64,000 nt of DNA, from the NCBI RefSeq assembly GCF_000252855.1, contig NC_017045.1, positions 1,798,001 to 1,862,000 of the forward strand. Reading direction: 5' to 3'. Shown piece by piece: positions 56,665 through 62,751 of the stretch (position 1 is its first letter; every line of letters begins with the position of its first letter). The position numbers and the translations under genes were made by a program. The DNA comes from Riemerella anatipestifer ATCC 11845 = DSM 15868. GTDB lineage: Bacteria; Bacteroidota; Bacteroidia; Flavobacteriales; Weeksellaceae. Below the pieces are notes generated by a model. The model saw only the letters and a program-made list of their open reading frames with translations. It searched no databases and was not told the origin of the DNA.

Positions 56665-56698
56665 GACCGCCCTTCCTTAATGCTAAGGAAGGGCGGTC
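56665..56698. terminator. Terminator after the DUF4469 gene
   Basis: A perfect hairpin with 15-bp arms from GACCGCCCTTCCTTA and its complement. Confidence 0.7.
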
Positions 56699-56715
56699 GC
56701 TTTATAAGAGGAAGA

Positions 56716-56808
56716 CACTTCACTGCCTAAGGCGAAGGCTCTTCTCTCGGTAAGGAGAAGAGCCTTCCCTCGTACGAGGGAACCGACTTCGCCTGTACTA
56801 AGGAAGTG
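56716..56808. repeat. Three-way-junction palindromic element
   Basis: Outer arms CACTTC...GGCGAAG (56716-56737) pair with CTTCGCC...GAAGTG (56787-56808). They enclose two hairpins: GGCTCTTCTC/GAGAAGAGCC (56737-56764) and the perfect palindrome TTCCCTCGTACGAGGGAA (56765-56782). It looks like a REP-type or structured-RNA element; no gene overlaps it. Confidence 0.5.
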
Positions 56809-56840
56809 AGGTATTTTCTGTAATAGAATAAATAGGAAGC

Positions 56841-56880
56841 AAAATCCCTGCTCTGTACCGTACAGAGCAGGGATTTTTTT
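56841..56880. terminator. Terminator at the distal end of the CRISPR array
   Basis: Near-perfect arms AAAATCCCTGCTCTGTA and its complement around CCG, with T residues on both strands. It could end the array transcript, which runs on the minus strand and passes the last repeat at 56893. Confidence 0.7.
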
Positions 56881-56892
56881 ATGCCCTTAGGT

Positions 56893-58851
56893 GTTGTGAA
56901 TACCCTTCAGAATGATGGCAGTCCCAACACTAGTAAAATAATAACGATATGAGAAATTGTTGTGAATACCCTTCAAATGCTTATGCATTCACAAACTCCG
57001 CTGAAAATATAACGAAGCGTGAGCTAAAATGAGAGCAGTCCCAACACAACAGCAATGCAAGAAAGTATAGGAAATGTTGTGAGTACCCTTCAAATGTTAC
57101 GCATTCACGAACTCCGCTGAAACAACAACAAAGTCGTGAGTAAAATGAGAGCAGTCCCAACTTCGAGGGCGATTAGCTGGACTTAATCGGCGTTGTGAAT
57201 ACCCTTCAAATGCTTAAGTATTCACGAACTCCGCTGAAAATATAACGAAGCTGTGAGTAAAATGAGAGTAGTCCCAACAGACCTAGCAGATGACGGTAAA
57301 CTAAACGGGTTGTGAGTACCCTTCAAATGTTACGCATTCACGAACTCCGCTGAAAACTTACAACAAAGCTGTGAGCTAAACTGAGAGCAGTCCCAACTTT
57401 CTGTGTTTTGTGCTGTAGCCTTAATATGTTGTTAATACCCTTCAAATGCTACGCATTCACGAACTCCGCTGAAACAACAACAAAGCTTGTGAGCTAAACT
57501 GAGAGCAGTCCCAACACTCACAACAACTTAAAATACCAAAATAAAGTTGTGAATACCCTTCAAATGTTATGCATTCACGAACTCTGCTGAAAACGACAAC
57601 AAAGTTGTGAGCTAAACTGAGAGCAGTCCCAACAATCAGACTTAGCAGATACTCGTGAAAAAAGTTGTGAGTACCCTTCAAATGTTACGCATTCACGAAC
57701 TCCGCTGAAAATACAACGAAGCTGTGAGCTAAAATGAGAGCAGTCCCAACTTGGACGAATAATACGCCATTGTTTAACTCGTTGTGAATACCCTTCAAAT
57801 GCTATGCATTCACGAACTCCGCTGAAACTACAACAAAGCTGTGAGCTAAAATGAGAGCAGTCCCAACGGAAGGTAGAATTGAATGTTTTCATGATCTGTT
57901 GTGAATACCCTTCAAAGTGAGAGCAGTCCCAACATAGCAGTAGAACCATCAAACGCTGTGGCTGTTGTGAATACCCTTCAAAGTGAGAGCAGTCCCAACC
58001 GGCAACAAAAGAAGGAGAAGAACAAAGCAGTTGTGAATACCCTTCAAAGTGAGAGCAGTCCCAACAGCAACATATACGAAAATCCAGAAATCTTAGTTGT
58101 GAATACCCTTCAAAGTGAGAGCAGTCCCAACTGTGCTTCCTACAACGAGTAGCGTTCCTTTGTTGTGAATACCCTTCAAAGTGAGAGCAGTCCCAACTTA
58201 ACTAAGTTACCTAGAAGTATAAATGAAGTTGTGAATACCCTTCAAAATGAGAGCAGTCCCAACTCTGCATCTACGAAGGTGATGAGGAAAAGGGTTGTGA
58301 ATACCCTTCAAAATGAGAGCAGTCCCAACCAATAGGACCTATTATATTTACAACAACAGGTTGTGAATACCCTTCAAAATGAGAGCAGTCCCAACATTTT
58401 GAAAATATAGAGGCGATAAGCCTTTGTTGTGAATACCCTTCAAAATGAGAGCAGTCCCAACTAAGAACTTTGTAGATGAAAGTGGTAATCTGTTGTGAAT
58501 ACCCTTCAAACTGAGAGCAGTCCCAACATTCTAAAAGGTACAGAGAATGAAGCTAAAGTTGTGAATACCCTTCAAACTGAGAGCAATCCCAACTCAACCA
58601 ATTTAATCTGCAACTCTGAAATGGTTGTGAATACCCTTCAAACTGAGAGCAGTCCCAACTGATAGGAATATTTCTTATTCTATTTTTTAGTTGTGAATAC
58701 CCTTCAAAATGAGAGCAGTCCCAACTCACAAACGGAAAAATATGTTTATTCCGTTGGTTGTGAATACCCTTCAAAATGAGAGCAGTCCCAACTTAGGAGC
58801 AAATAAGCTGTATTTATTGGTGTTGTGAATACCCTTCAAATGCTGTGCATT
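56893..58851 (-). CRISPR. Type VI-B CRISPR array with short and long repeats
   Basis: It contains 23 spacers, nearly all exactly 30 nt (one 31, one 29). Read on the plus strand, 14 repeats of 36 nt begin GTTGTGAATACCCTTCAAA and end GAGAGCAGTCCCAAC (57898-58792). Eight long repeats of 86-89 nt (56959-57867) have the same two ends with ~51 nt inserted. The distal end has a degenerate 36-nt copy (56893-56928); the cas-proximal end has a truncated copy (58822-58851). In the Cas13b system the crRNA is spacer followed by repeat, which fits transcription on the minus strand, downstream of csx28. 58852-58920 is the presumed leader. Confidence 0.97.
56959..57867 (-). repeat. Block of eight long CRISPR repeats
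   Basis: Long repeats start at 56959, 57076, 57192, 57309, 57428, 57546, 57664 and 57781. Within each, the repeat start TTGTGAAT is partly complementary to ATTCAC(A/G)A inside the insert, so an alternative hairpin to that of the 36-nt repeat is possible. Inserts vary slightly in length and sequence. Confidence 0.9.
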
Positions 58852-58920
58852 ATTGTTATGATAGGGTATTGTCTTTTTTGGGTGCTTGTTTTATCTCGAT
58901 GTTTCAAAGAACGCTTTTCT

Positions 58921-59457
58921 TTACAACGCTTTTAAATCGCGTTGTTCTATTTTTAGGCATTGCCTAATGCTTTGGCTCAACTTATGATGCAGCACCTTCA
59001 TTCTGGTAGCCGCCTCTTCGTTTTTTAGTCGGAACTCCGCCTCGGTGCTGTTTTGCTCTGCAAGTAGGAGCTTATGAACGATACTACGGTACTCAAAAAA
59101 CTTTTTGGTGACTTCCTCAGATAAGAAGAGCCCACAGCCCTCCCCATAAAATAGTTCTGGGAGCTCCCTTAGAAAGGCTTGGGCATTGGCTCGGTTAATA
59201 TAATGAATTTTATCCTTTTGCCCTTTGGGAACTTCCCATTTTAAGAGGTTTTTGGGGTTGTCTTGGTCGGTCATATACGCCAGCAGACGGTACATCTGCT
59301 TATGGGCATGGAGTATATCCTCGTACTTTTGGCGTTCAATGTTGCCCTTAAGCTCTTGCCTAATCTTACGGGACAACACAATGGTAGATACAATGGCAGA
59401 CACAATGACGGCAATGGTAGGAGTTACTATTTTTAAAACTTCTAATATCCAATACAT
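58921..59457 (-). CDS. csx28: Csx28, membrane-anchored accessory protein of type VI-B2
   Basis: A 178-aa protein, the family length. One N-terminal transmembrane segment (about residues 8-29) is followed by a helical cytoplasmic domain. A HEPN-type RxxxxH motif is present as R152-H157 (RMKVLH). Csx28 enhances Cas13b-mediated interference and has been reported to form a membrane pore; HEPN RNase activity is not established. It starts 6 nt after the cas13b stop and ends about 70 nt before the array. Confidence 0.88.
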   Translation of the reverse strand: MYWILEVLKIVTPTIAVIVSAIVSTIVLSRKIRQELKGNIERQKYEDILHAHKQMYRLLAYMTDQDNPKNLLKWEVPKGQKDKIHYINRANAQAFLRELPELFYGEGCGLFLSEEVTKKFFEYRSIVHKLLLAEQNSTEAEFRLKNEEAATRMKVLHHKLSQSIRQCLKIEQRDLKAL

Positions 59458-59463
59458 ACTATT

Positions 59464-62400
59464 CTAAATTTGAGATTTAACAATTTCGCAATATTCACGC
59501 AAGACTTTTAGCAATGCTTCGGCAATGCCTAAGCCGTCTTTTTCTTCGGTGGTTGGCTGGGCAACCGTAAAGAGCGGAATAGGAGCGTGGAGGGCTTCCT
59601 TGTAAAAAGGGTATTGGTTATGGCAGAAGGCATTGCGTACCGAGGCGATAAAGGCGATATGCTCGTCCGTAACCATGGATGAAGCAGCATACTCTTTCTT
59701 CCATTCTTCCAATAATGCACGAAACTCATTCTCTAAACTGGAGAGACTGGTGTGTTTGTTCAGTAGTTTCTCTTCCAAGCTCAGGGTTTCTTTAAAGGCA
59801 TCTACCCTTAGCGATTGGTAAATCTCCAACTCCCGCCTTAATCTGAGCTGACTAATCGGGTGCTTTTGGGTATCGTTCTCCTCTTTGATAAAGCTAAACA
59901 AACCGTTAAGACGGCGGTCTTTTACCAAGGCTTTAAAGTTCCCCATTTTAAGGGCTTTGGTATGCTCTTCTCGGATATAGACGGTTCTTATCGGTGTTTT
60001 ATGGTATTGTACTTCCCCAAATGCAGTGGCAGGATAGACTTTTACAGGCAACACCATAGGCAAGGTTTGGTTCAGCGGATTGAGCTTGGCGTCTGCTTCC
60101 TGAACATTGACCGCCAAGTTCTCTAATTTGAGCTGGTGGTAGTTCAGATTCAGTTCTTTAAAGTGATTTTTTGTCAGCTCTAAGGTCATCAGCCAAAGCA
60201 TAACATCTTGGTTTCTGTAGAGCCTAAGTTTCTTCTCCAAATGTTGCCAGCGTTTGTAGAGGAGGTAGTCTTTCCATCGGTCAGAAGTATGCAACTCCAG
60301 CCTCTGAGACTCCGTAGGGCTTTGGGGTTTGTTCTGTTGCCAATATTCGTAGTGTTCTTCCCTCTTTAGCAGCGGTGCCTTGGCTTCTAACTTGTACGAA
60401 AGGTTGTAAAAACTCTGGTGCTTGTCTTGGTACTTTTCCTTAAAGTACAGTGTAATGGCTCTGGAGATAAAGCCTACTCTGCCGTGTTTTTTAATCTCCT
60501 TTCTAATAGGTTTGGATAGCATGAGGTCTTCCGAAAGGGTCTCTCTAATCGCTTCGGTAAACAGCCCTCTTGGCAGACTAATGCCCCCTTGTTCCCAACC
60601 TTTAACCAGATTTTTTCTATTCTCTTTCGGTATTTTAAGAAGTAGGCAGTACTGGTACGGCTCCCAAGGTTGGTTTTTGATAGCTTCTAAGAATTTTTCT
60701 CTTTGTTCCAGATACTGTTGGTAAAAGTCCACCAGATTCCTACACGCTTTCCAATTGAATTTATTTAGGAACGGGTGCGGGTTGGTATTTCCGATGAGGT
60801 TGGTTTGCTTAAAGTAGCCTTCTAGTCTGTTCTTTTCGCCTCCGTACAAGGCTAATGCTCTTCGGATAAACCAAAATTCCGTGCTGTTGGCTTTACTGCT
60901 CTTTATAGGTTGGTTTTGAGCATCGTAAGCCACAGGCTGAAATCGCATAAAGTCTTTCACCAGCCAATCAGCCAATACGCCTGTCTTGATGAGCTTTTCT
61001 CGTCTCTTTCCGAGCTTTGGAGAGCTTTTTAGTTTGGTGTTGAGGCGGTGGGAGAGCAGCTTGGTTTCGGCTATTAGTTTTTCTATTTTGATTTTGGCTT
61101 TTTCCGAAAGGTCGGGTTGTTTATTTTGCAGTAAGCCCAACATTTGTTTTGGAAAGGCGCCTAAAGGAAGGCGACCTTGGTTGGCTTTTTCTAAATCTTC
61201 AATCGTGTTGATGCGTTCTTCTTCAAAGTCTTTGTAAATCCTTTGGATATGTCTAACGGTTTCCTTCAACAAGTCTTCCGATTTACCAGTTAAATGCTGG
61301 TAGAACATCAGAGGTAACAATTCGTGGACACTGATAAAAGCATGAGCTACAAAACCGGAATTATAGGGATATTTGGCTATGCGGTTGGCACCGTCTTTTA
61401 TCTCCAACGAAGGGTACAACTCTTTAGAAGTTCCTAAGCGGAAGCCGATTTTGTTATCGGTAATGTGGTAGTGCGGAGTGGTTTTACTAATAAATGGCTG
61501 ATTGGAAGTCTCTTTATAGTCAAGGTCTTTGGTGAGAGCCTTCCACTCTTGAGGACGATTTATCTCTGTGAAATCTTGTAGCCTACCGAAGCTCAATAGG
61601 GTTCGGGTCAGGTGGCGTTTCTCTTGTTCATCGCCTATTTTCTTGTCGTAAATACAGTAATGGTAAGTGCCTAAATCCACTTGAAACCTTATGGACTTAA
61701 AAGACTCATTGAGGTCTAAATAGCGTAGAGCAAAATAAGGGAAACGGTCTTGATGTCTGATCAAGGTATCTTTAAAAGGGTTTTGTTCTTCCTCAATTTC
61801 GTCCAAAAAGCCATCAGCTTCTACCTGAAAATGTTTTTTATTCTCTTCGGAGAGTTTTTCATAGAGCAGTTTAGGGCAACGGCTCAGTTCAGAAAGCATA
61901 TCCAAGAGCATTTGGTTATGGTCGTATCGGCTCTCTAACCTTAATTTAGGAAGGAGTATGCGGCTTCTGCAAAACACTTCGGTGGTCATTTTTTCTCTTT
62001 GTTTATGACTGGCTTTAAAACCACTGACTTTTTTCAGCATCCAGTAGGCATCGCGTTTATCCAAAAATAGATTAGTGAAAAACAATAGCCCTGATTCTGT
62101 AAAAAAGCCGTCTTTTTCGAAGCGGTAGCGGTTGAAGTCAGGGTTGTCTTGCTTGTTTTTACCTTTTCTGTTTAGATGGGCAAAGTCCCGAGTGAGGTTG
62201 ACGGTAAAGTGGGCTTTGTAGTCCTCTTTTACCATTCGTAAAGAAGCATCAAAGGCTTTGTAAAGATGTTTAAAAATATCTTTTTCTGCATCGGGTTTTT
62301 TGTGTTTGTAGTGGCTATAGTAGTTCCTAAGACTGTGGAGTTGATTTACAAGGATTTCCAACGCCTCAATCAATTTGCTTGGATTAAGAGCCTCGGCTTG

Positions 62401-62751
62401 AGATTGGGCTTCGCTTTCTTTCTCTTTCTGCTGCTCTTTTTGGTGCCCCTTCTTTTTTCCCTCTTTTTTAGGAGGGTGGTAGCACATTGCCGTCAGGAAC
62501 GGGAAGTGTTTTAGGATAAGTTCCGTTAGTTGGCTCTTTTTGAGTAAATCGTGGTCGTTGTTGAGTATGTTATTCCATGTCTCACAGACAACATCTACGA
62601 TTTTGTCATCATTTGAAGGGGTCTTAAGCCCCAACTGTTCGTTGATATGGCAGATGGTGATAAAAGCATTATGCCTTGCAATGTTAAGGAAGGCTCCCCA
62701 AAAGAACTTGTGTTTCAGTGTGTAAACATTCGGTAGTAAAGGTTTTTCCAT
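59464..62751 (-). CDS. cas13b: CRISPR-associated RNA-guided RNase Cas13b
   Basis: A 1095-aa class 2 effector that binds crRNA and cleaves target RNA. The two HEPN motifs are at the ends, as in Cas13b and unlike Cas13a: R142-NYYS-H147 in LHSLRNYYSHYKH, and R1039-NAFC-H1044 in SVRNAFCHNQ. A charged low-complexity insert (about residues 94-122) precedes HEPN1. The array repeats (ending CAAC, starting GTTG) fit the Cas13b crRNA. It is followed by csx28. A perfect promoter is not visible; TAACTTTA on the minus strand is one base off the -7 consensus. Confidence 0.96.
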   Translation of the reverse strand: MEKPLLPNVYTLKHKFFWGAFLNIARHNAFITICHINEQLGLKTPSNDDKIVDVVCETWNNILNNDHDLLKKSQLTELILKHFPFLTAMCYHPPKKEGKKKGHQKEQQKEKESEAQSQAEALNPSKLIEALEILVNQLHSLRNYYSHYKHKKPDAEKDIFKHLYKAFDASLRMVKEDYKAHFTVNLTRDFAHLNRKGKNKQDNPDFNRYRFEKDGFFTESGLLFFTNLFLDKRDAYWMLKKVSGFKASHKQREKMTTEVFCRSRILLPKLRLESRYDHNQMLLDMLSELSRCPKLLYEKLSEENKKHFQVEADGFLDEIEEEQNPFKDTLIRHQDRFPYFALRYLDLNESFKSIRFQVDLGTYHYCIYDKKIGDEQEKRHLTRTLLSFGRLQDFTEINRPQEWKALTKDLDYKETSNQPFISKTTPHYHITDNKIGFRLGTSKELYPSLEIKDGANRIAKYPYNSGFVAHAFISVHELLPLMFYQHLTGKSEDLLKETVRHIQRIYKDFEEERINTIEDLEKANQGRLPLGAFPKQMLGLLQNKQPDLSEKAKIKIEKLIAETKLLSHRLNTKLKSSPKLGKRREKLIKTGVLADWLVKDFMRFQPVAYDAQNQPIKSSKANSTEFWFIRRALALYGGEKNRLEGYFKQTNLIGNTNPHPFLNKFNWKACRNLVDFYQQYLEQREKFLEAIKNQPWEPYQYCLLLKIPKENRKNLVKGWEQGGISLPRGLFTEAIRETLSEDLMLSKPIRKEIKKHGRVGFISRAITLYFKEKYQDKHQSFYNLSYKLEAKAPLLKREEHYEYWQQNKPQSPTESQRLELHTSDRWKDYLLYKRWQHLEKKLRLYRNQDVMLWLMTLELTKNHFKELNLNYHQLKLENLAVNVQEADAKLNPLNQTLPMVLPVKVYPATAFGEVQYHKTPIRTVYIREEHTKALKMGNFKALVKDRRLNGLFSFIKEENDTQKHPISQLRLRRELEIYQSLRVDAFKETLSLEEKLLNKHTSLSSLENEFRALLEEWKKEYAASSMVTDEHIAFIASVRNAFCHNQYPFYKEALHAPIPLFTVAQPTTEEKDGLGIAEALLKVLREYCEIVKSQI

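Follow-up and report, generated by a model that had tools for sequence, protein, structure and literature searches.

Short and long repeats in the type VI-B2 CRISPR array of Riemerella anatipestifer: a conserved structured insert biased towards the leader-distal end

The CRISPR array situated at positions 56893-58851 of the window (the whole stretch of 64,000 nucleotides that was analysed) contains repeats of two very different lengths, which raises the question whether the order of the two forms records how the array has grown. A sequence-only reading had ascribed the array to a type VI-B system and had proposed a single change of repeat type during growth, with the older spacers on long repeats. 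The ascription is correct: the locus is a chromosomal type VI-B2 CRISPR-Cas system of Riemerella anatipestifer, a duck pathogen (window genome 2,164,087 bp), since it encodes a member of the Cas13b family with both HEPN motifs intact and a member of the Csx28 family, and lacks cas1 and cas2, the single Cas1 match of the whole genome lying about 830 kb away.

59464..62751, minus strand: cas13b, 1095 aa, type VI-B RNA-guided RNase (NCBIfam NF038190, 865.7 bits over 12-1088)
58921..59457, minus strand: csx28, 178 aa (NCBIfam NF040556, 256.2 bits), marker of subtype VI-B2

Both models score far over their cut-offs, csx28 starts 6 nt downstream of cas13b, and 36-nt repeats with spacers of about 30 nt lie beside these genes. 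The two R-X4-H motifs of Cas13b (RNYYSH with R142/H147 and RNAFCH with R1039/H1044) consist of residues that are invariant in an alignment of seven proteins, and the Cas13b of the nearest other genome, R. anatipestifer CCUG25054, is 96% identical. RNA cleavage and pre-crRNA processing by the Riemerella protein are predicted from its sequence.

The array was examined base by base and all repeats were parsed. The crRNA strand is the minus strand, which also encodes cas13b and csx28, and the repeat reads GTTGGGACTGCTCTCA(T/G/C)TTTGAAGGGTATTCACAAC. Starting from the leader, a truncated first repeat precedes 14 short repeats, then come eight long ones, and a short repeat that is degenerate closes the array:

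58852..58920, minus strand: leader, 69 nt from the csx28 stop to the array, delimited from the sequence
58822..58851, minus strand: truncated first repeat, reduced to the 3'-terminal 30 nt of the long form (97% identical to long-repeat positions 58-87)
57898..58792, minus strand: leader-proximal block, 14 short repeats, each exactly 36 nt long, and their spacers
56959..57867, minus strand: leader-distal block, eight long repeats (86-89 nt) with 30-nt spacers, established by parse, alignment and folding
56893..56928, minus strand: terminal degenerate short repeat, an ATTCTG variant, GTTGGGACTGCCATCATTCTGAAGGGTATTCACAAC, kept in three Riemerella genomes
56841..56877, minus strand: intrinsic-terminator-like palindrome with a 17-pair stem, about 15 nt past the last repeat, by consensus match alone

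The full parse agrees with the sequence-only reading in counts and lengths (14 repeats of 36 nt, eight of 86-89 nt), in the ends common to both forms (GTTGGGACTGCTCTCA...GAAGGGTATTCACAAC), in the long repeat being a short one plus about 51 nt, and in the nearly constant spacers, 21 of 23 being exactly 30 nt long, one 31 nt and one 29 nt. The long repeats do form one block on the side far from the cas genes (57867-56959), but a fifteenth, degenerate short repeat beyond this block had been overlooked, as had the fact that the leader-side element at 58822-58851 is a partial repeat of the long and not of the short type. The form switches only twice in 23 repeats, against 10.4 switches expected by shuffling (p<0.001). 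Between the array end and a HU-like DUF4469 gene (window 56665-56877), several strong palindromes are found, the terminator-like hairpin among them.

Long repeats had been said to be previously described for Cas13b arrays, and as summarised in PMC8209922 they were first reported by Smargon et al. 2017, with a length of 88 nt and a crRNA of 118 nt. As far as that summary goes, the window resembles the earlier system in that a 36-nt repeat is split by an intervening sequence (giving 86-89 nt in the window) and mixed with short repeats in one array, and it differs in being a VI-B2 system with Csx28, in its unbroken long block and in its truncated first repeat of long type. The Bergeyella zoohelcum array was re-parsed; its insert is homologous to that of the window and was included in the alignment and covariance model described below. 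For R. anatipestifer, the window array is most likely CRISPR2 of Zhu et al. 2016 (PMC5006608). In that survey, a terminal block called 'large spacers' is described for about 20 strains, the long units following one another at the end of the array in nearly all strains that possess CRISPR2. CRISPR2 is called an orphan there and in a 2018 study (PMC6008519), and neither cas13b/csx28 nor the long repeat was recognised at CRISPR2 by Zhu et al. The 'large spacers' would correspond to our long repeats, in which case the block arrangement is species-wide and already on record under another name. The converse, that ordinary 36-nt repeats with some long spacers have been misread, as CRISPR finders gave for CRISPR2, would suit the published list, in which spacers measure 29-82 nt and the large ones come last in the array (PMC5006608). 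It is refuted by the alignment and can practically be dismissed: the extra 51 nt or so are homologous in all long units and in other genera and contain covarying pairs, and a 30-nt spacer remains beside them.

Concerning its structure, the insert sits in the apical loop of the 36-nt repeat and forms two hairpins, with a core yTCaC...GGAGTTCrTGAAT followed by a small hairpin, while both repeat forms retain the same outer Cas13b repeat stem. Single long-repeat sequences fold better than their shuffles (z -2.5 to -5.2). The consensus structure, built on 49 distinct long-repeat copies, comprises the repeat stem and the two insert hairpins, and 97.6% of its pair cells are kept. Changes on both sides are found in 49 pair cells compared with 15 in shuffles, the covariation of 0.229 (0.154 when shuffled) was reached by 0 of 500 shuffles, and sliding the partner by 1-3 columns reduces pairing to 39-49%. 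The covarying insert pairs span Riemerella, Bergeyella, Flavobacterium and a Bacteroidetes MAG. A covariance model separates the two forms cleanly (long repeats 75-105 bits, short repeats at most 44 bits). Short repeats are exactly 36 nt in all arrays, and long ones range from 85 to 89 nt. Nucleotide diversity (pi) is 0.09-0.16 per site in the insert, whereas the repeat ends that flank it in those copies have 0.01-0.04. The insert is bordered on either side by a TTT...TTT homology. Rfam yielded no match to the insert or the long repeat above the gathering score. By sequence search and covariance model, the long repeat was not found elsewhere in the window genome, and no template copy of the insert was found there either. 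A promoter within the insert, as in II-C repeats, was considered and rejected, the Bacteroidota TAnnTTTG box not being kept (judged by eye) and the matches of a sigma-70-like scan falling mostly across repeat/spacer junctions. Because the outer stem is the same and the insert is confined to the apical loop, both forms are expected to yield crRNAs that carry a 30-nt guide at the 5' end and are about 66 nt long from short and about 117 nt long from long repeats; processing of both would follow published work on the long form summarised in PMC8209922, which according to that summary comes from systems other than Riemerella.

Homologous long repeats are found in three Riemerella genomes, in Bergeyella zoohelcum, in four Flavobacterium genomes (one with two arrays), in one other Flavobacteriaceae MAG and in one Bacteroidetes MAG. 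All arrays examined from Prevotella, Porphyromonas, Chryseobacterium and Bergeyella cardium consist of short repeats, with no long ones. Eleven arrays with long repeats (the window and ten others) were compared, each ordered from the leader (S, short; L, long):

Window: 14S-8L-S
R. anatipestifer CCUG25054: 7L-2S-L-S-L-S-7L-4S-L-S
Third Riemerella genome: S-2L-3S-2L-S
Bergeyella zoohelcum: 10S-6L-S-2L-S-6L-2S (14 long, 14 short)
Bacteroidetes MAG: 20S-L-3S-L-5S
F. jejuense: 15S-L
Flavobacterium J27: L-2S-L-10S-L-S-3L
Flavobacteriaceae PBR18: 20S-L
Flavobacterium G800, two arrays: 6S-L-S-L and 6S-L-2S-L
Flavobacterium G857: 4S-2L-S

In one Flavobacterium genome, two VI-B arrays flank cas13b (L099 6318-6985 and 10733-11466), and the long repeat comes last in both. 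In Bergeyella zoohelcum, two units of spacer and long repeat are duplicated in tandem (L020 6911-7470), the spacers of each pair being identical.

Across these arrays, the long form is biased to the leader-distal end: its mean relative position exceeds 0.5 in nine of eleven (0.63-1.00), with one tie and a value of 0.42 in CCUG25054 (sign test p=0.02 over arrays; 8:1, p=0.04 over genomes). In the window, the repeat ends are more decayed the farther they lie from the leader (rho 0.55, p=0.007), and a marker at nt 17 clusters in runs (7 versus 15.1 expected, p=1e-4). CCUG25054 shows no such gradient (rho 0.04), and in the Bacteroidetes MAG it runs the other way (rho -0.46), so growth polarity is not uniformly visible. 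Canonical spacer acquisition at the leader end was demonstrated for a VI-B array of Flavobacterium columnare (PMC8092290), and on this ground it is fair to take long repeats as tending to be older. For the window, we infer from position and decay that the short leader-side block is probably the younger and the long block the older. The proposal of older spacers on long repeats thus stands as a tendency, but CCUG25054 and J27 carry long repeats on the leader side. Repeat type is therefore no age clock; the long form has long belonged to these VI-B systems, with its structure conserved, and it tends to the older array end but is no strict mark of age.

Could the window nevertheless have arisen by one serial switch, in which an array growing at its leader end on long repeats lost the insert from its first repeat once, all later repeats being short? 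Its block order with only two switches would be expected, pure short blocks adjoin the leader in eight of eleven arrays, and in the first G800 array six leader-side short repeats and one long repeat have ACTACC, whereas the older ones have ACTGCC. Against these stand arrays in which long and short repeats alternate repeatedly (both of G800, Bergeyella, J27, CCUG25054), and within the window 'long first, short later' does not describe the order completely, as the array ends in a short repeat, which would be older than the long block, and its leader-side first repeat is itself of long type. Nor do the long-repeat inserts show serial likeness, consecutive copies differing by 7.29 as compared with 6.64 when permuted, such that their divergence gives no signal of age order. 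We regard this course of events as rather unlikely.

A single change from long to short is in fact contradicted by the interleaving of both forms in CCUG25054, in the third Riemerella genome and in J27, and by markers that go with the type. CCUG25054 has the opposite layout to the window, seven long repeats adjoining the leader and nine type switches following, the highest number per array; in J27, the first repeat is long. In Bergeyella, ATGTTG short copies recur amid long copies, which all have ATTTTA; in J27, ATTGTA is found in five of six long copies and ATTTTG in all short copies; and in the Bacteroidetes MAG, both long copies possess ATGTTA and the short copies ATTTTG. In these three arrays, the markers track repeat type and not position. 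That short repeats arose from long ones by simple deletion was considered as well, and is contradicted by the exact 36-nt length and by these type-specific markers. The pattern suggests that short and long repeats are two lineages that coexist, interleaved, in arrays of several Bacteroidota, and we infer that the two are templated separately, although type-specific markers could also come from structural selection on the long form. Coexistence may have come about by recombination, by internal insertion or by a master-copy process. The wider proposition that the insert is a functional RNA module under selection in several Bacteroidota families, that short and long lineages are copied separately, and that growth proceeds partly by means other than duplication of the first repeat, is put forward only tentatively.

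In a master-copy process, a long first repeat would be single-stranded at acquisition, and gap filling would either copy or skip the hairpin insert, yielding long or short copies, until loss of the insert left only short ones. The first repeat is long in J27 and long-derived in the three Riemerella genomes, both forms alternate right up to the leader in three of these four arrays, leader blocks are purely short wherever the first repeat is short, and the TTT...TTT homology around a hypervariable insert would suit such skipping. However, plain deletion does not give exact 36-nt repeats with type-specific markers (J27, Bacteroidetes MAG), and in the window 14 short copies come after a long-derived first repeat; we consider this mechanism improbable.

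Were arrays to recombine with one another, or spacers to be inserted at internal repeats, each new repeat would copy its neighbour, and position would then tell little of age. The comparison of related strains, from which the sequence-only reading had expected the age order to emerge, bears on this point: the three Riemerella genomes have both array ends in common and 0 spacers in common. Near-identical long repeats (one difference) are found in different Riemerella strains beside different spacers, and type and marker are locally clustered. The canonical leader-end acquisition in F. columnare (PMC8092290) speaks against such a course, and something else would have to account for the distal bias of long repeats, so that this explanation, too, appears possible rather than probable.

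As for present growth of the array, the first repeat lacks the 5' part in all three Riemerella genomes, the same truncation being present in CCUG25054 (L018) and in the third genome (L019). The leader, nearly identical in the two other Riemerella genomes, contains AATACCCT (58863-58870), which is able to pair with AGGGTATT in the first repeat; the predicted hairpin has an 8-pair stem of -12.4 kcal/mol (z -4.1). The predicted pairing is reminiscent of a hairpin between leader and repeat by which extraneous crRNA is blocked in VI-B2 systems (Migur et al. 2026, PMC13187072). Unlike the intact first repeat of that study, that of the window has no hairpin of its own to compete, and the loss of its 5' part alone should abolish extraneous crRNA. 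First repeats with the 3' half kept and the 5' half lost or scrambled, separated from the first full repeat by the length of one spacer, occur in several VI-B arrays, namely of Chryseobacterium, Pedobacter, the Bacteroidetes MAG and Riemerella (L024, L025, L026, L049, L056; window 58822-58851). Guide-repeat systems have been argued to be unable to use such disabling mutations of the first repeat (PMC13187072).

A first repeat without its 5' part cannot be duplicated as a whole repeat, and the window array is therefore probably no longer growing. The truncation fits the published failure of CRISPR2 acquisition, none having been seen in the strain examined (PMC6008519); CRISPR2 is also described as stable, with strain differences that are mostly losses (PMC5006608). 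In the third Riemerella genome, Cas1 was not found, and cas13b (L019 8041-13336) is split at about codon 330 by a transposase-like gene (named by eye) that is present in two inverted copies. Common array ends without any common spacer in the three genomes are not easily explained by a simple frozen array.

Concerning the origin of the spacers, one on a short repeat of the window has phage matches:

58066..58095, minus strand: spacer on a short repeat, 93-97% match to Riemerella phages PJN03, CRP19 and GDF21

Its target in CRP19 falls within a gene encoded on the opposite strand, which makes the guide antisense to the mRNA. A spacer on a long repeat of CCUG25054 (L018:7287-7316) matches phage GDF21 between genes, just outside the annotated ones, in an all-reverse gene cluster running opposite to the guide. 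Antisense orientation is thus found for one window spacer and one CCUG25054 spacer, a small sample; guides of phage origin occur on both repeat forms and have the polarity that is expected for RNA targeting. The spacers at window 58462-58491 and L019 13979-14008 have 19 nt in common at an 11-nt offset (AGATTACCACTTTCATCTA), as if they were independent captures of one target.

Taken as a whole, the reading that we favour with reasonable confidence is that leader-side short repeats are probably younger and long repeats older, that repeat type is no clock, that two repeat lineages coexist, and that the window array is probably frozen. Mixed repeat lengths are a known phenomenon; what the analysis adds is that the insert is structured and conserved, that long repeats lean to the distal end with clear exceptions, and that the first repeat is truncated. 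A conserved two-hairpin module within the Cas13b crRNA repeat turns the purpose of the long crRNA into a testable question. How VI-B arrays without cas1 gain spacers, with a repeat length unlike that of a co-resident II-C system, has been stated as open (PMC8092290), and arrays with two repeat lengths and marker differences are natural recordings of spacer gain.
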